Source: a virus. Taken from it: a DNA stretch of 37,344 nt. The stretch is from positions 1 through 37,344 of IMG/VR virus record IMGVR_UViG_3300018469_000005; one strand, written 5' to 3'. The translations under genes were made by a program, and so were the position numbers. The notes beneath the pieces were generated by a model. It was given only the letters and a program-made list of their open reading frames with translations. It was not told the origin of the DNA and made no database searches. Below are positions 7,017-37,344 of the stretch, piece after piece (the first letter of the stretch is position 1; each line of letters begins with the position of its first letter).

Positions 7017-8990
7017 ATGGCCCCACCTGTCAAAGAGCTTCCGCCCCGGCAACGGGCGCCGCGCGCGCTAACCGGCCCGCGGCCGGCACCGTTGCTCGAC
7101 GAGACCGGCACCCAGCTACAGGTCCGTATCTCCGAACTTGACCCGGCGACCAACATCGCCGACGGCGACCAGCTTGAAATCAATCAGGCCGGCATATCGC
7201 GGCGCATGTCGGTCGCGCAGATGAAGGCGACGACGGCGCCCGACCTCACGCAGTTCCTGACCGGCATCGTTCCCGGCGATGGCATCCAAGTCCTCGGCGG
7301 CGCCCCCGTCCCCACCGTCATGCTCGCCGATGTCGGCGCGCCCGGTACCTTCGGCGATGCCGCGAACGTCCCGCAGATCACGGTCGACCAGTACGGGCGG
7401 GTTAACGGCGTGGCCTTGGTGCCTATCCCGCAGCCGAACCTTTCCGGCTATGCGCCGCTCGCCAGCCCGGCCTTCACTGGCAATCCGACAGCGCCGACCG
7501 CCGCGCCGGGCGATGCTGACACCAGCCTTGCGACCACGAGCTTCGTTCAAAATGCGATCACCTCGCGCAACCTCGCGCCGATCGAGAGCCCGGCCTTTAC
7601 CGGCAACCCGACCGCGCCGACGCCCGCGCCCGGGGATGCTGATACCAGCATTGCGACGACGGGCTTCGTCGAGGCGCGCGTTGCCGCGATCGTGCCGGTC
7701 GATCTATCGGGCTATGCGCCGATCGCGTCGCCGAATTTTACCGGCGATCCGCGGGCGCCGACGCCGGCCCTGATCGAAGCCGACACGAGCATCGCGACAA
7801 CGGCCTTCGTGAAAGGGCAGAACTACGTCACCGCCGATTCGCCCGCGCTAACCGGCAACCCGACAGCGCCGACGCCGGCCGCCGAGGACAACGACACGAG
7901 CATTGCGACGACCGCCTTCGTCGCGGCGGCGATTGCTAGCGGCGCGTCGATCTCGGTCGGTGTCGCGCCGCCCGCGAGCCCGAAGCCCAATCAGCTTTGG
8001 TGGCACGCCGAGCTTGGGCAGATGTTCATTTACTACAACGACGGCGACACCTCGCAGTGGGTGCCGGCGTCGCCCGCCGCGAACATGACGTCACCCGGCG
8101 GCGAGTTCGCCGCGGTCAATTCGGGCGGCTTCGGCCTGCCCGTCAACACGCCGACCGTCATCGGCCCCAACACCGTCCAGACCGGCAACAGCGGCGGCTG
8201 GTACAATCCGGCGAACGGTCGCTATACGCCACCCGCCGGACGCTACTTCATCTTCGGCACGTTCTCGGCGGGAGCGCCCGGCGGCGCGAGCGGCCTGCAG
8301 ATCAGCTTCCGTAAGAACGGCGTGGCGATCGGCGGCTATAGCTGGGGCACATCCGGTTCGGCGAACTGGAACGAGGGCGCGACCAACGCGCAGATCGTTG
8401 ACGCGAGCGGCACCGATTACTTTGAACTCGTGCTGCTGTCCGGCATTTCGTCGAATGTCTCGTCGGTCCAGTTCATGGCCTTCCCGATCTCGGGCATCAA
8501 AGGCCCGCCGGGCGATATCGGCGCACCGGTCGCGGCGTTTAACGTGCGCTCGACGGTGGTCGATACCGTGAGCGGGCCCAACAATATCCCGGTCTTTCGC
8601 TCGATCATGGCGCCGGTCAAGGACCACGATCCGGACAATGTGTGGGATCTCGCGAACGCGCGTTTTACCGCGCCGAGCGCCGGCCGCTACTGGTTCTCCT
8701 GCCACGTCTATGGCGCCAACTCTGTCGCGAGCCTCACCGGGCTCGTGCTTCGCCATTCGACGGCAGCCGGCGCCGTGATCCGCGACTACATGCAGGCGCA
8801 GGTTGGCGACGGCACGCCCTACGGCTCCGACTACAACGTGACGATGGAATTGCAGATGGGCGCCGGCGAGCGCGTCTCGTTCCATGTCGGCACGAACGCC
8901 GGGAACTTCGCGATGGCGCCGTCGAGTAGCAGCGTTGGTGGTCTACTAGGCGCGACGCTGTGCTGGGCGAGCGGAAGGAAGGTGGTGTGA
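7017..8990 (+). CDS. modular tail fibre with AFTGNPTAPT repeats and C1q-like domains
   Basis: This 657-residue protein begins with a proline-rich region and an ISELDPATNIADGDQLEINQ segment. From about residue 148 to 305 it has four repeats built around SPAFTGNPTAPTPAPGDADTS followed by IATTAFV, the repeat seen in side-tail-fibre shafts. From residue 360 on there are two beta-sandwich modules that look like C1q/TNF-type head domains (GGWYNPANGRYTPPAGRYF, LQISFRKNGVAI). The first module ends with FPISGIKGPPGD, a short collagen-like linker. A GGAGGC ribosome binding site lies before the ATG. The role is probably receptor binding at the baseplate. It sits between the gp45-like and gp46-like genes, where Mu has no fibre gene. 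Confidence 0.82.
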   Translation: MAPPVKELPPRQRAPRALTGPRPAPLLDETGTQLQVRISELDPATNIADGDQLEINQAGISRRMSVAQMKATTAPDLTQFLTGIVPGDGIQVLGGAPVPTVMLADVGAPGTFGDAANVPQITVDQYGRVNGVALVPIPQPNLSGYAPLASPAFTGNPTAPTAAPGDADTSLATTSFVQNAITSRNLAPIESPAFTGNPTAPTPAPGDADTSIATTGFVEARVAAIVPVDLSGYAPIASPNFTGDPRAPTPALIEADTSIATTAFVKGQNYVTADSPALTGNPTAPTPAAEDNDTSIATTAFVAAAIASGASISVGVAPPASPKPNQLWWHAELGQMFIYYNDGDTSQWVPASPAANMTSPGGEFAAVNSGGFGLPVNTPTVIGPNTVQTGNSGGWYNPANGRYTPPAGRYFIFGTFSAGAPGGASGLQISFRKNGVAIGGYSWGTSGSANWNEGATNAQIVDASGTDYFELVLLSGISSNVSSVQFMAFPISGIKGPPGDIGAPVAAFNVRSTVVDTVSGPNNIPVFRSIMAPVKDHDPDNVWDLANARFTAPSAGRYWFSCHVYGANSVASLTGLVLRHSTAAGAVIRDYMQAQVGDGTPYGSDYNVTMELQMGAGERVSFHVGTNAGNFAMAPSSSSVGGLLGATLCWASGRKVV

Positions 8991-10366
8991 TGGCCGCGCT
9001 CGATTTCCCCGCCGCGCCGACCACCGGGCAGACATGGGGCGCCCCGAACGGCGTGATCTATCGCTGGACCGGCACGCTGTGGACGGCGATCGGCAACGTC
9101 TCGCCGTCACCGGGCGGCGACTTCATGGCGATCAGCACCGCCGACATCGGGCTGACCGGCCCGGGTGCCGTCATCGTCCCCAACTCTGTGCTCGTCGGAA
9201 ATGCCGGCGGTTGGTACTCCACCGTTACCGGTCGCTTTACGCCGCCCGCCGGACGCTATTTTCTGCAGGTCCAGTTCTCCGCGTGGAACGGCGGCGGTAC
9301 CGGCGGCACGTCCACCGTTCAACTGCGCAAGAACGGCGTCGCTATTCCGACCGCCTTCGGCTCGACGACGCAGAGCGGCAATCAGGGCATGGCCGTCGCG
9401 ACGGCGCTCGTCGATGCCAATGGGACGGACTACTTCGACTGCTTCGGCCTGACCGGTGCGTCGCAAGGGCTGTGCCGCCCAACCTTCTCGGCCTTCCCGA
9501 TCTCGGGCATCAAAGGCCCGCCGGGCGACAAGACGTCACCTGATGGCGACTTCTTCGCGTTTGGCTACAACGTCCCGGGCATCGGCACGACACCGACGAC
9601 GGCACTGAACATTCCCGTGCTGACCGGCAACGCAGGCGGCTGGTTCAACAGCGCGACCGGCCGCTGGACCCCACCGGCTGGCCGCTACCATTTGTACGGT
9701 GGCTATAGCTTCTACAGTTCAAGCAGCCTCATCCTCGGCTCGATCTATCTTCGCAAGAATGGCGTCGTAATCACCCAGTTCAACGCGTCGTCCGGCCCGA
9801 GCGCGAATCACTATGGCGAGGCGACGACCCAAGCCAACGTAGACGCCAACGGGACCGACTGGTTCGACCTGCAGTGCTACACGCATATCGGCAACAGCGG
9901 GAACATGATCGCCTTCGGCGCCTTCCCGCTCTCGGGCATCAAGGGACCGCCGGGTGATCCCGGCCCTAGCGTCATCAGCGCGAATGACGTGCTCGTCTAC
10001 ATGCCGGCTGACGTGCCGATCAATACCGGCCTCAATGTGCCGCTCATCAGTACGGGGATGATCGGCCTCGCCGGACAGAAGTGGGAGATCGAAGGCGTTG
10101 CTCTGATCGGCAGCAACCAAGCGGCGGCTACCACCGCGGGCGTGAACATTCATGACGGCACGGCTCACATCGCAGGCGGTGGTGGCGTCATGGGTTGGGC
10201 CACGCCGGGCTGGGGTGTCACCGGCATCTGCAAGGGGCACAAGCTGCTGACGGGTCCGACGACCTTCACCCTGCGCGGCTCCGGCAACGCAAGCGGCTGC
10301 CTCGCCTATGCCAACGGGCAGGGCGGCTTCGGCGCGACGTACATTTCAGCGCGGAGGCTCTACTGA
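8990..10366 (+). CDS. second modular tail fibre with C1q-like domains
   Basis: The start is the ATG at 8990, overlapping the preceding TGA, with GGAAGGAAGGTGG just upstream; the ATG at 8960 is weaker. The product is 458 residues. Residues 1-35 (ALDFPAAPTTGQTWGAPNGVIYRWTGTLWTA) form an N-terminal module often found at the start of phage fibre proteins. Three beta-sandwich modules follow. The first two share SP[GD]GDF, GNAGGW, TGR[FW]TPPAGRY, LRKNGV and [DA]NGTD[YW]F with each other and with the upstream fibre, and end in FP[IL]SGIKGPPGD. The third, C-terminal module is divergent and rich in Gly. The two fibres are clearly products of module duplication and likely form a heteromeric or alternative receptor-binding apparatus. 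Confidence 0.8.
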   Translation: MAALDFPAAPTTGQTWGAPNGVIYRWTGTLWTAIGNVSPSPGGDFMAISTADIGLTGPGAVIVPNSVLVGNAGGWYSTVTGRFTPPAGRYFLQVQFSAWNGGGTGGTSTVQLRKNGVAIPTAFGSTTQSGNQGMAVATALVDANGTDYFDCFGLTGASQGLCRPTFSAFPISGIKGPPGDKTSPDGDFFAFGYNVPGIGTTPTTALNIPVLTGNAGGWFNSATGRWTPPAGRYHLYGGYSFYSSSSLILGSIYLRKNGVVITQFNASSGPSANHYGEATTQANVDANGTDWFDLQCYTHIGNSGNMIAFGAFPLSGIKGPPGDPGPSVISANDVLVYMPADVPINTGLNVPLISTGMIGLAGQKWEIEGVALIGSNQAAATTAGVNIHDGTAHIAGGGGVMGWATPGWGVTGICKGHKLLTGPTTFTLRGSGNASGCLAYANGQGGFGATYISARRLY

Positions 10367-34284: not shown

Positions 34285-34365
34285 CGAAAAGCGGCATCGG
34301 CTTAGAGCGCGGCCCCGCATACTGTTGCAACGGTCAACCGCGCGTTACCCGAACCGGGCCGCCTG

Positions 34366-34408
34366 CCCCCACCCTGCCTGACCAAGACGGGGTGGGGGTT
34401 CCGTTTGT
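34366..34408. terminator. bidirectional intrinsic terminator
   Basis: CCCCCACCC (34366-34374) and GGGTGGGGG (34390-34398) form a perfect nine-pair stem with a 15-base loop, followed on the plus strand by TTCCGTTT. It lies between the plus-strand gene ending at 34284 and the minus-strand gene ending at 34417, so it can stop transcripts from both sides. The stretch 34285-34365 shows nothing else except a near-palindrome centred on GTTGCAAC. Confidence 0.7.
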
Positions 34409-34416
34409 CCGGGCGA

Positions 34417-34950
34417 TCAGACGTTCACCAGCGTCGAGGCTTCGCTGTATTTGTGATCGCCCTTCGTCATCATTTCGAGGAATTCGGCGCGCGTGAAGTC
34501 GGATAGACGGAAGACTTCCTCGGGCCGCATGCCGAGTTGCTTGCCGATCTCGGGCACCGTCTTCCCGTTATCCATCAGGCGCTTGACGATCGCCTTCATC
34601 GGCCCGAGTTGGTGGACGCCGCGCGCCCGGTTATGCGTGATCGTGCCGTAGACGTTGGCGTCATCATCGGCGTGCTCGACGACAGCGATCGGCACCATGC
34701 CGCCGAGCCGCGATAGCAACGGCTCGATGCCCGAGACCATCCAGCGGTGATAGCCGTCGATGATCACCATGTCGGGCCGGACCACGATGGGCATGGTCCA
34801 GCCGTTGGTCATGATCGACTGCGTGAGCAGCTTTAGGTTCTCGGGCAGGACGGCGTTCGGGTTGTAGTCATTCGGCCGCAGTTGATCGCGCTGGACCAAA
34901 CGCACGTTCGTCACCGGCCGGAGAAGGTCGATCGACGGACTGCTTGTCAT
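34417..34950 (-). CDS. ParB/Srx-like protein with helix-turn-helix (IbrB-like)
   Basis: The start at 34950 has GGGAG seven bases upstream, better than the ATG at 34980. The 177-residue product has an N-terminal ParB/sulfiredoxin-like domain: LVQRDQLRPNDYNPNAVLPENLKLLTQSIMTNGWTMPIVVRPDMVIIDGYHRWMVS, with GYHRW (66-70) at the position of the nucleotide-binding GERR box. THNRARGVHQLGPM (105-118) matches the following ParB box. Residues 130-150 (KTVPEIGKQLGMRPEEVFRLS) form a helix-turn-helix. E. coli IbrB has the same form and is paired with the PP-loop protein IbrA, as here. The gene overlaps the PP-loop gene by 83 bases. Confidence 0.82.
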   Translation of the reverse strand: MTSSPSIDLLRPVTNVRLVQRDQLRPNDYNPNAVLPENLKLLTQSIMTNGWTMPIVVRPDMVIIDGYHRWMVSGIEPLLSRLGGMVPIAVVEHADDDANVYGTITHNRARGVHQLGPMKAIVKRLMDNGKTVPEIGKQLGMRPEEVFRLSDFTRAEFLEMMTKGDHKYSEASTLVNV

Positions 34951-36049
34951 AGCGGACTCCCATCTTGTTGGAGAGCGCACGGAGCGACCGCTTCTTCGGG
35001 TCGCCGGCGACGAGGATCTGGTACATGTCGCGGTAGTCGACTTCGAGCATCGACGTGCCGGCCTTGATCATTTCCCGCAGGCACTCGCGCGCAAGCTGGC
35101 GCTGCGACTTGTTGGTGAAGTGCGCCGGGATGTCGGCGAACATCGCGTGTACCGCGGCCTTGTAGTTGACCGCCGTCCCGCCCTGCCCTTCGAGGACGCG
35201 CCGCGTCCGGCTACGGCGCCGGAACATTTCGGAGTGGAAGTAGAGCGAGACGAGGTAGGCGTTGGGCTCGCGCTTAAGGATAGCCAGCATCAGCCCGGGA
35301 TAGTACCGCTCGATGTCGGCGAGGTTGCGCGCGGTGTCGATCGAGAAGAACTGCGATATGCGCAACTGCTGCCCGCCGTCGATTGCGTACAGATGGAGAT
35401 AGGCGTCGGGGATCTCGACGGCGTGGTCTCGGAGGTAGAGCCAGACATCGTGGTCGCGCCAGTCATAGATCGGCTGGACGGTGTTGCACTGTTCCAGCTT
35501 GAGGTCGCCCCGGCGGCGCTGCGCGAAGGCTAGCCGGCGCTGCACCGATTCATTGATGCGCACGCCCGTCATGTTGAGCCCGTTGGAGAGCCGCGGCAGG
35601 AAGGCCTGATAGTTGTCCTTGCGCGGCTTGAGCAGCGGGTGGCTGCGGATCGCGAACGGCGGCGGGCGCCGTATCCAAACGTCCTCGCGGGTATGGTCCC
35701 AGCAGAAAAACGACTCGTCGTTCTCCAGCATGTTGAGGCACGAGTAGTGCCGGACCTCTAGGCAGTACCAATCGAATTTGGCGCCGGCCATCAGGAACAT
35801 ATCGCGCCATTGCCGGACGACGCGCTCGACGCACGGGAAGATCGCTTCCTCGTCGATGAAGATGACCGTAAGCTGGTGCAGGTCGATCGCGCCCTGTTGC
35901 CCCAACTCGAGCGTGAGGTGGGCGAGGGTCAGCGAATCCTTACCCCCGGAGAATGACATGTAGACCGGGAGCCCGTTGCCGAAGATCGAGCGGATGCGCA
36001 GGCGCGCCGCGGTGACGACATCCATGCCCAGCTTGCGCTCGACCATCAT
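34868..36049 (-). CDS. PAPS-reductase-like PP-loop ATPase (IbrA-like)
   Basis: The start ATG at 36049 overlaps the ParB-like stop as ATGA; the longer frame to 36079 overlaps that gene further. The 393-residue product has the PP-loop SGGKDS (residues 34-39) in VYMSFSGGKDSLTLAHLTLELG, then LTVIFIDEEAIFPCVERVVRQW, DWYCLEVRHYSCLNMLENDESFFCWDH, and the PAPS-reductase element VQPIYDWRDHDVWLYLRDHAVEIP. It activates substrates as adenylates, by family. The C-terminal 130 residues (IERYYPGLMLAILKREPNAYLVSLYF ...) are specific to the IbrA/phage subgroup. The substrate is unknown; sulphur or nucleotide chemistry is a guess from the fold. Confidence 0.86.
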   Translation of the reverse strand: MMVERKLGMDVVTAARLRIRSIFGNGLPVYMSFSGGKDSLTLAHLTLELGQQGAIDLHQLTVIFIDEEAIFPCVERVVRQWRDMFLMAGAKFDWYCLEVRHYSCLNMLENDESFFCWDHTREDVWIRRPPPFAIRSHPLLKPRKDNYQAFLPRLSNGLNMTGVRINESVQRRLAFAQRRRGDLKLEQCNTVQPIYDWRDHDVWLYLRDHAVEIPDAYLHLYAIDGGQQLRISQFFSIDTARNLADIERYYPGLMLAILKREPNAYLVSLYFHSEMFRRRSRTRRVLEGQGGTAVNYKAAVHAMFADIPAHFTNKSQRQLARECLREMIKAGTSMLEVDYRDMYQILVAGDPKKRSLRALSNKMGVRYDKQSVDRPSPAGDERAFGPARSTAAE

Positions 36050-36633
36050 AGCGTGAACTCCCCGCGGCAGTGCGGGCACGTCACGATCCGCGGCGCCGCC
36101 CCGTTCGCCGCGTGCGCGCCGTTGGTCCCCGCCCCGTTCGGCGCCGGCTGCGTCGAGCCCGCCGGGATCTGCCGGCCCTGCGCCGCGGCGATCTCCTCGG
36201 GCGATAGCCGGCCGTACTCGGTCGTATAGTTCTCGGTCAGTTGATCGACATTGCCGATCAGGCTTTTCAGCAGGCTCTCGTCGAAGCCCGGCACGTCGTA
36301 GTCGCTAAGGCTGCCGAGTACCGACTTGATCGCGTCGTAGTCGTCGACCCCCATCTGAAAAATCTTGTTGTCCGAGAGGATCAGCTTGGACTTGTCGGTC
36401 GGCGACAGGCCGGCCATCCGGATCGCCTGTACCTCCGTCCACTCCAGCTTTGTCGCCGCCTCGACCAGCCCGTTGCCGGCGAGCACCATGCCGTCCTCGT
36501 CGATGACGATGGGACGCGTCTGCCCGAACATCATGAGCGCGCGGCAGAACTCCGTGATCTGTGCCTCGGGGTGACGGCGGGTGTTGCGCGGCGGCGGGCG
36601 CAGGTCGGCGATGGCGACGGGCTCGATCTGCAT
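36046..36633 (-). CDS. ParB-like protein with C-terminal zinc knuckle
   Basis: The 195-residue product starts QIEPVAIADLRPPPRNTRRHPEAQITEFCRALMMFGQTRPIVIDEDGMVLAGNGLVEAATKLEW, a ParB N-terminal domain with the GNGLVEAA box, continued by LSPTDKSKLILSDNKIF. This is the subgroup usually linked to DNA methyltransferases or phage terminase regions, where the 'L.DNK' box follows. The middle is acidic, the linker is Pro/Ala/Gly-rich, and the end has CPHC (186-189), a single zinc knuckle. It lies between cupin and PP-loop genes with four-base overlap downstream. Confidence 0.8.
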   Translation of the reverse strand: MQIEPVAIADLRPPPRNTRRHPEAQITEFCRALMMFGQTRPIVIDEDGMVLAGNGLVEAATKLEWTEVQAIRMAGLSPTDKSKLILSDNKIFQMGVDDYDAIKSVLGSLSDYDVPGFDESLLKSLIGNVDQLTENYTTEYGRLSPEEIAAAQGRQIPAGSTQPAPNGAGTNGAHAANGAAPRIVTCPHCRGEFTL

Positions 36634-36636
36634 GGC

Positions 36637-37263
36637 CTAGGCTCCTACCGCAAGCGTTGCCTCCAGCATTTGATGGCGCTCGTCGGTCGGCCCCACCACG
36701 CTGTCGGGATGAAAGGCGATGATGTCCATGGTCTCGGCCTCGGTGGTGAAGCCGTGGATGGCGCCGGTCGGGATGACGAACACGGAGCCAGGTTCGAGCG
36801 GGAAGTCGCCGGTCGGCGCGCGGCAGATCCCGCGGCCGCTGGCGATCAGCCCGATGCGTACGCTCGGGTGAGTGTGCAGCGTCTGGACGATACCGGGCGG
36901 GAAGTGCAGGTGGTTAAGGCAGGGATCGCCCTGCTTGATCGGCCCGATCAGGCCGGTGTCCGTGCAGCCGTCGATGTAGCGTAGGCGCCCGGTCGCTTCG
37001 AGTGGTCCGCCGGCCATCCGAATCCCGCGGTAGTGCTTGGCGTGGACGAGTAGCGCGCGCGAGTCCTTCGAGGCCCGTAGGTTCGCGCGGCCGACGATCG
37101 CGGCGTACATGTGCGGCCATAGCCGGATGCCGTCGAAGCTAACCGTTCCTCTGGATACAGCGACGTAGGTCGTCGCCTCGCCGGTCTCGCCCGGCCCGTC
37201 CTGCCACCACGCGCGTACGTCACGATCCTCATAGCCGTCTTCAAGCAGGCCGACCTTAAGCAT
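36637..37263 (-). CDS. cupin-domain protein
   Basis: The start at 37263 has AAAGGAG about 11 bases upstream; an earlier ATG at 37314 is less likely. The 208-residue product has an N-terminal half with no recognisable motif (residues 1-110) and a cupin at 115-195. This has NHLHFPPGIVQTLHTHPSVRIGLIASGRG and PLEPGSVFVIPTGAIHGF, giving metal-binding candidates H130, H132 and H170. Cupins of this form are small-molecule binding or oxygenase-like folds. It precedes the ParB-like gene by three bases and begins the minus cassette. The 80 bases upstream hold only a TCGCTAGCGA palindrome. Confidence 0.76.
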   Translation of the reverse strand: MLKVGLLEDGYEDRDVRAWWQDGPGETGEATTYVAVSRGTVSFDGIRLWPHMYAAIVGRANLRASKDSRALLVHAKHYRGIRMAGGPLEATGRLRYIDGCTDTGLIGPIKQGDPCLNHLHFPPGIVQTLHTHPSVRIGLIASGRGICRAPTGDFPLEPGSVFVIPTGAIHGFTTEAETMDIIAFHPDSVVGPTDERHQMLEATLAVGA

Positions 37264-37344
37264 AGCGGGCAGGCTCCTTTGGGCTGGTCTACGGTCCGCG
37301 AATCTCGCGTTCAATCGCTAGCGAAAAAACGTGCCTCTCGCTCC

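Follow-up and report, generated by a model that had tools for sequence, protein, structure and literature searches.

A recurrent ParB–PP-loop–ParB gene core with alternative cupin and transporter partners in phages and prophages, and its possible role in DNA modification

The window analysed here is the whole of the IMG/VR virus record IMGVR_UViG_3300018469_000005, a stretch of 37,344 bases. Close to its end lies a cassette of four minus-strand genes, which encode a cupin, a ParB-like protein (ParB1), a PP-loop ATP pyrophosphatase (PP) and a second ParB-like protein (ParB2). The coordinates of the cassette are collected in Table 1. A preliminary description of this DNA had called the genes tightly packed, and the open reading frame (ORF) coordinates agree with the spacings it gave: a 3-base gap between the cupin and ParB1, a 4-base ATGA overlap between ParB1 and PP, and an 83-base overlap between PP and ParB2. 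The comparison with related loci demonstrated that ParB1-PP-ParB2 is the fixed core of one phage and prophage enzyme system, in which both order and strand are conserved.

Table 1. Features of the cassette in the window, with the sequence motifs of PP.
Feature	Position	Strand	Description
Cupin	36637-37263	-	208 aa; Cupin_2; AlphaFold model; fold matches; no match in PHROG search
ParB1	36046-36633	-	195 aa; ParB/Srx domain; phrog_620; C-terminal CPHC tail
PP-loop (PP) ATP pyrophosphatase	34868-36049	-	393 aa; phrog_2302, "PAPS reductase-like"
PP motifs (residue numbers)			SGGKDS 34-39, D66, E68, R127, GxRxxES 162-168, PIYDWxxxD 193-201; helical C-terminal region
ParB2	34417-34950	-	177 aa, ATG at 34950; phrog_2159, IbrB-like
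GC-rich hairpin, terminator-like, without T tract	34354-34398	-	3' of the ParB2 stop; not called by terminator scan

Related loci were collected from three anchors, namely PP, the cupin and PP2, which is a further PP-loop protein of the PAPS_reduct type. The peptide patterns used were specific to each anchor, and the search therefore did not itself introduce the partners; the locus sets hold the best-scoring matches and do not sample the relatives at random. The search seeded with the PP protein of the window returned 11 viral loci, and the order ParB1-PP-ParB2 was observed in 10/10 of those with upstream DNA, the eleventh being cut at the contig end. A profile search for PP contributed a further 80 viral loci and 80 loci from bacterial genomes, mostly of Clostridia with some of Treponema and Bacteroidales. 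Among the distinct PP loci flanked by 4.5 kb or more on each side, ParB1 and ParB2 were present on the same strand in 95/95 (40/40 viral, 55/55 genomic). The cupin-seeded loci contained PP and ParB2 in 22/22 cases and ParB1 in 17/22, while for the PP2-seeded loci the corresponding values were 43/44 and 41/44. The neighbourhood check that had been set in advance thus found all four genes together elsewhere, and not rarely. The co-occurrence from three anchors and the overlapping genes bear out the proposal that the cassette is one unit. Given the fact that the arrangement recurs across relatives whose PP identity is 20-57%, it is not a product of chance. The median overlap across loci was 10 bases at both the ParB1-PP and the PP-ParB2 junctions. 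The correlation of distance matrices was 0.78 for PP-ParB1 and 0.50 for PP-ParB2, and 0.69 and 0.60, respectively, after correction with the terminase large subunit (TerL).

The usual order, present in most of the relatives, was transporter - PP2 - ParB1 - PP - ParB2 - small and large terminase subunits, and in most loci the terminase genes were located just downstream of the core. Two loci (L014:4899-7074 and L177:7901-10065) presented the changed order ParB1-ParB2-PP, with the terminase directly downstream. In the actinobacteriophages prophi79-1 and Wheelbite, a methyltransferase gene was observed between ParB2 and the terminase (L018:7968-8573 and L019:5627-6205), as if the core and the methyltransferase occupied one common genomic slot.

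The slot in front of the core was filled by a cupin in 84 loci and by a transporter in 154, and by both in none, across 238 labelled loci, some of which overlap. Transporter loci mostly carry PP2 beside the transporter, and the cupin takes the transporter's place in the window and its closest relatives. The transporter belongs to the Sodium:solute symporter family (Pfam SSF, 79.1 bits), for which urea and choline transporters are the solved chains closest in sequence, or is of a shorter type found in FP_Taranis that may be a remote relative of the SSF type (profile comparison probability 85). In PP2 (L006:4590-5369), a CGTH-type motif was found inside the last 60 residues of 90/107 relatives; PP has no CGTH-type motif. 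In the PP tree (103 rows), the cupin label falls in two places that are apart from each other: a large divergent clade, and a clade of 11 rows to which the window belongs and which is nested within rows linked to transporters. This requires a minimum of two changes between cupin and transporter; for exchanges between the two types of transporter, the well-supported branches give a minimum of four. The repeated swapping of the front gene around a core that stays fixed suggests that cupin and transporter meet the same need, and the need is probably for a small molecule. The preliminary description had counted the cupin as part of the system; its co-occurrence with the core upholds this, with the amendment that the cupin alternates with a second kind of partner, the transporter with or without PP2. 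A chance neighbour was ruled out as an explanation for the cupin, as the search seeded on the cupin alone returns PP and ParB2.

PP was matched by Pfam PAPS_reduct (45.8 bits) and by phrog_2302 (9.8e-74). Its residue conservation was assessed over 54-62 diverse PP proteins, including relatives at 20-25% identity. With rare exceptions, SGGKDS, D66, E68, W94, W117, R127, P130, R164, E167-S168, R171, D196-W197 and D201 are retained family-wide, and the active site of PP, for which degradation had been set as a check, is intact in the relatives examined. A sequence search of the PDB with the single PP protein gave nothing useful. In the structural model (predicted local distance difference test, pLDDT, 82.6), residues 1-245 matched PAPS/APS reductases, FAD synthase and the ATP sulfurylase subunit CysD with Z scores of 13.8-14.9; the closest PAPS reductase comparison reached Z 14.9, with a root-mean-square deviation (rmsd) of 3.4 over 181 residues. 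The fold comparison rests on these residues, the helical remainder being barely tested, and a fold family absent from the VIA lists was not counted as excluded. CysD and FAD synthase transfer adenylyl groups, and from this kinship adenylylation is inferred for PP.

The catalytic ECGxH of PAPS reductase was found in 0/196 PP family members. The cysteines of the window's PP occur only at positions 73, 96, 104, 116, 188 and 323. Cys73, Cys96, Cys104 and Cys116 are 96-100% conserved in the window's branch; elsewhere just Cys96 and partly Cys116 are kept, and the four are therefore not a shared catalytic device of the PP family. As judged from its motifs, PP has a full ATP-pyrophosphatase site and lacks the reductase cysteine. 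Owing to the absence of ECGxH, the common label of "PAPS reductase" or sulfur auxiliary metabolic gene (AMG) is probably wrong for this protein.

The two ParB-like proteins differ in their matches and motifs. ParB1 was assigned to phrog_620 (1.6e-35) and ParB2 to phrog_2159 (9.2e-65); the Pfam ParB_N match of ParB2 (23.5 bits) fell under the cut-off of 26.3. ParB2 was aligned to the solved chromosome-partitioning ParB 6t1f (profile 20-147 against 38-167), the alignment reaching into the helix-turn-helix (HTH), and it carries an HTH-like segment at about residues 118-150, after the ParB/Srx domain. ParB2 is thus predicted to have a DNA-binding architecture, a ParB/Srx domain followed by an HTH-like segment. 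No match of ParB1 to solved ParB extended into the HTH region. The motifs of CTP-dependent ParB proteins, GERRxR and ENxxR, are intact in neither protein. ParB2 has DGFHRW and HNRARG (GFHRW/HNxxR) against GERRWR and ENxxR, so that the Gly, second Arg, Asn and last Arg are kept, while ParB1 has AGNGL (GNGL) and DN, which retain the Gly and Asn and no Arg. The preliminary description had noted that ParB/Srx folds can bind or hydrolyse nucleotides; the domains are indeed present, but with the motifs altered in both proteins their nucleoside triphosphatase (NTPase) activity is uncertain. It had also seen a zinc knuckle in ParB1. The CPHC of the window is one pair, half a zinc site, although the CPxC-type tail itself is conserved, occurring in the last 20 residues of 135/157 ParB1 proteins, mostly of the transporter-linked group. 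ParB1 further matched phage DNA methyltransferases in their ParB part (phrog_498, 2.1e-26; PADLOC MTase_II, 2e-12). By these matches it is a member of a family whose proteins form the front halves of phage DNA methyltransferases, which is the best functional clue for ParB1. In Bacillus cereus, the fusion of a ParB domain with an adenine methylase had nicking activity, as cited in PMC5512222.

The cupin scored 29.3 bits against the Pfam Cupin_2 cut-off of 27.2. Its AlphaFold model (pLDDT 95.5) presented two barrels, a predicted bicupin, and the best fold matches were DUF861 proteins including ureidoglycine aminohydrolase, followed by BacB and dioxygenases (Z 14-18); the DUF861 bicupin gave Z 18.0 and an rmsd of 2.9 over 188 residues. 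Cupin folds are common to many enzymes, and the fold matches therefore do not give the substrate. The C-terminal barrel contains QTxHTHPSxR...H (H130, H132, H170) and a FHPDSxxGPTDExHxM tail motif. The three His are invariant and Arg136 stands at the usual Glu/Gln ligand position; the complete His/His/Glu(Gln)/His metal site is absent from the window's cupin, and a 3-His metal site is possible. No cupin relative was found among 50,697 phage records. In Paraburkholderia caribensis (NZ_CP015960, L257:13926-15439), a cupin homologue is directly followed by a gene resembling S-adenosylmethionine (SAM) methyltransferases, with no PP or ParB near, a neighbourhood that may hint at the small-molecule chemistry of the cupin.

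The 5' edge of the window falls within a tail-sheath gene (1-1034), and its ORFs include baseplate, tail-fibre, integrase and primase/helicase-type genes; from this gene content, the window belongs to a temperate phage with a contractile tail. The window ORFs examined included neither terminase nor portal nor capsid genes, and the missing stretch past the cassette (34417 to the end at 37344) probably holds the head module. Downstream, the cassette is neighbored by a convergent gene, and the record itself is a fragment. The preliminary description had placed a strong terminator at the end of the cassette. A GC-rich hairpin with a 9-pair stem (CCCCCACCC/GGGTGGGGG, z -2.06) does follow the ParB2 stop, and a terminator role for it is plausible; however, it has no T run and does not appear in the terminator scan. 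The promoter scan found no promoter, and the Rfam and tRNA scans gave no matches. The tail-fibre region (7467-7928 and 8472-9957) contains four 87-nt copies that are 70-79% alike and three 44-nt copies that are 84-95% alike, internal repeats that are a sign of fibre duplication or exchange.

Following the analysis of the individual proteins, we tentatively favour a reading in which the system performs an ATP-driven covalent modification of phage DNA, linked to packaging, with an imported or cupin-handled small molecule as the donor. PP would use ATP to adenylylate, and hence activate, the small molecule or a DNA group, in the manner of CysD on sulfate or FAD synthase on FMN. ParB1 and ParB2 would direct this chemistry to the DNA, place the donor there and set the choice of site, and the transporter (with PP2) or the cupin would supply or convert the donor. 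The product would be a covalent modification of the phage DNA made late and close to packaging, which might, for example, shield the DNA from host nucleases or mark it for the terminase. The window would then represent the cupin version of the proposed system. In favour of this reading we count the co-occurrence and tight spacing of the core genes, the retained catalytic residues and fold of PP together with its lack of ECGxH, the methyltransferase matches of ParB1, the methyltransferase genes of prophi79-1 and Wheelbite, the terminase downstream of most loci, the exchange of cupin and transporter, the distance correlations, and the precedents of DpdB (PMC12839542) and DndC (PMC10853773). A wider claim, that this is a widespread and undescribed phage DNA-hypermodification pathway with new chemistry, in which a small molecule adenylylated by PP is installed under ParB guidance before packaging, appears rather doubtful to us.

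Several observations weigh against DNA modification. The chemistry is a prediction from genes and folds, the NTPase motifs are altered in both ParB proteins, and PP resembles DndC or BrxP just weakly and locally (DndC model TIGR03183, 15 bits against a cut-off of 290.4; PADLOC DndC, 16 bits). The terminase linkage is also incomplete: the window cassette has no adjoining terminase, some phage PP/ParB pairs are away from it, and the IbrAB-like plasmid pairs lie near fimbrial regulators instead. To our knowledge, gene activation, as in IbrAB, is the sole known function for a PP-loop/ParB pair. The main rival is an IbrAB-like complex, in which PP and ParB2 (with ParB1) would activate late prophage genes under the control of a nucleotide or metabolite, the signal molecule would be tuned by the transporter or cupin, and PP would make or sense an adenylylated signal. 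The homology of PP and ParB2 to IbrA/IbrB-like pairs, the HTH-like segment of ParB2, the location of the operon where late (terminase) transcription begins and the fimbrial neighbourhood of the Escherichia albertii plasmid genes all agree with such a role, and IbrAB of E. coli ECOR-9 is reportedly, going by the title of work by Sandt and colleagues from 2002, a co-activator of prophage eib genes. Nevertheless, two fully conserved enzymatic PP-loop sites and a transporter would be a heavy outfit for a switch, the relatives of ParB1 are fused to methyltransferases, and in some phages the pair is distant from the late genes; we consider this activator somewhat unlikely. Between DNA modification and regulation, the sequence favours neither decisively.

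We regard as quite improbable a conflict module, in which the ParB/Srx proteins would be NTP-regulated nucleases or nucleotidases, controlled by PP and the cupin or transporter, that keep out other phages or act against the host. Nicking and NTPase activity are described for ParB/Srx domains of phages and plasmids (PMC5512222), DndB and GmrSD offer precedents, and many of the loci are in bacterial genomes, as expected of prophages; yet the GERR/ENxxR motifs are altered, the terminase linkage fits less well, and PADLOC defence families gave weak partial matches only, none covering the cassette proteins. A protein or RNA target, such as a terminase subunit or a tRNA, reached through adenylylation-driven chemistry like that of QueC-like or TtcA-like PP-loop enzymes, would accord with PP-loop relatives that include tRNA thiolases and the protein Cap9, and the four cysteines conserved in the branch of the window might bind a metal or an iron-sulfur cluster. 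The rest of the PP family does not have this set of cysteines, however, and two ParB-like partners with an HTH point to DNA, which makes such a target very unlikely. As for sulfur metabolism, where PP would be a true PAPS reductase raising host cysteine synthesis, as phage "cysH" is usually read, the PAPS_reduct score and the PAPS reductases among the best fold matches speak in its favour; the missing ECGxH and the constant ParB partners led us to reject it, and it ranks as extremely improbable.

PP-loop "PAPS reductases" are commonly reported as viral sulfur AMGs (e.g., PMC8319345, PMC8879888), and viral PAPS reductase AMGs have been listed as not validated (PMC12713726). As the PP family goes together with two ParB-like proteins and does not have the cysteine of the reductases, ecological claims built on the "PAPS reductase" label need re-examination. 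If the hypermodification pathway were real, numerous "PAPS reductase AMGs" of this type in phages would move from sulfur metabolism to a DNA pathway. The operon also turns the unexplained chemistry of IbrA/IbrB into a testable pathway, in which the swappable transporter and cupin partners suggest a small molecule and the terminase linkage suggests the time and place of action.

Among the known systems, IbrA/IbrB is similar in having a PP-loop gene followed by an overlapping ParB-like gene, and the kinship proposed in the preliminary description was confirmed by BLASTP. The partner was an E. albertii plasmid pair annotated as PAPS reductase and ParB, standing in for the ECOR-9 originals; PP showed 27% identity (264 aa, 1e-24) and ParB2 39% (147 aa, 3e-31). 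This pair, on plasmid pEA36_4 (L258:4989-6838), adjoins fimbrial regulators of the PapB and PapI families, and a PP relative was observed in 571 plasmid records, mostly of Klebsiella and Escherichia. The window differs by adding ParB1 and the cupin and by another C-terminal PP region, and its nearest kin lie by the terminase with a transporter and PP2. No Pfam match to DUF3440, the IbrA region, was obtained in the window's PP at E<=1; for this reason, PP is described as IbrA-like and is not filed as IbrA. The phage proteins of PHROG 620, 2302 and 2159 (FP_Taranis, PJN03 and others) come from the same three adjacent core genes, present in the window too, with the terminase downstream. None of the isolated phages searched has a cupin, and Taranis has a transporter instead.

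The phosphorothioation systems Dnd and BREX type 4 (DndC, BrxP) likewise combine a PP-loop ATPase with a ParB-superfamily protein (DndB) acting on DNA (PMC10853773, PMC12839542), DndC being a PP-loop DNA-modifying enzyme (PMC10853773); they differ in that no sulfur-donor gene was seen in the cassette operon. In Dpd, a ParB-like ATPase, DpdB, is partnered with the base-modifying enzyme DpdA and serves the insertion of preQ0 into DNA (PMC12839542), whereas no TGT-like DpdA was present among the proteins examined, no direct Dpd homology search having been made. With the PAPS reductase CysH, PP shares the PP-loop fold and the SGGKDS site, and differs in the missing ECGxH cysteine and in its ParB partners. 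The literature search, with most subscription journals outside it, found no work combining the cassette parts and no description of the operon. PP-loop/ParB pairs already have names, as IbrA/IbrB and as PHROGs, with PAPS reductase as the usual annotation; what appears new here, within that search, is the full operon, with its alternative cupin or transporter, PP2 and linkage to the terminase.

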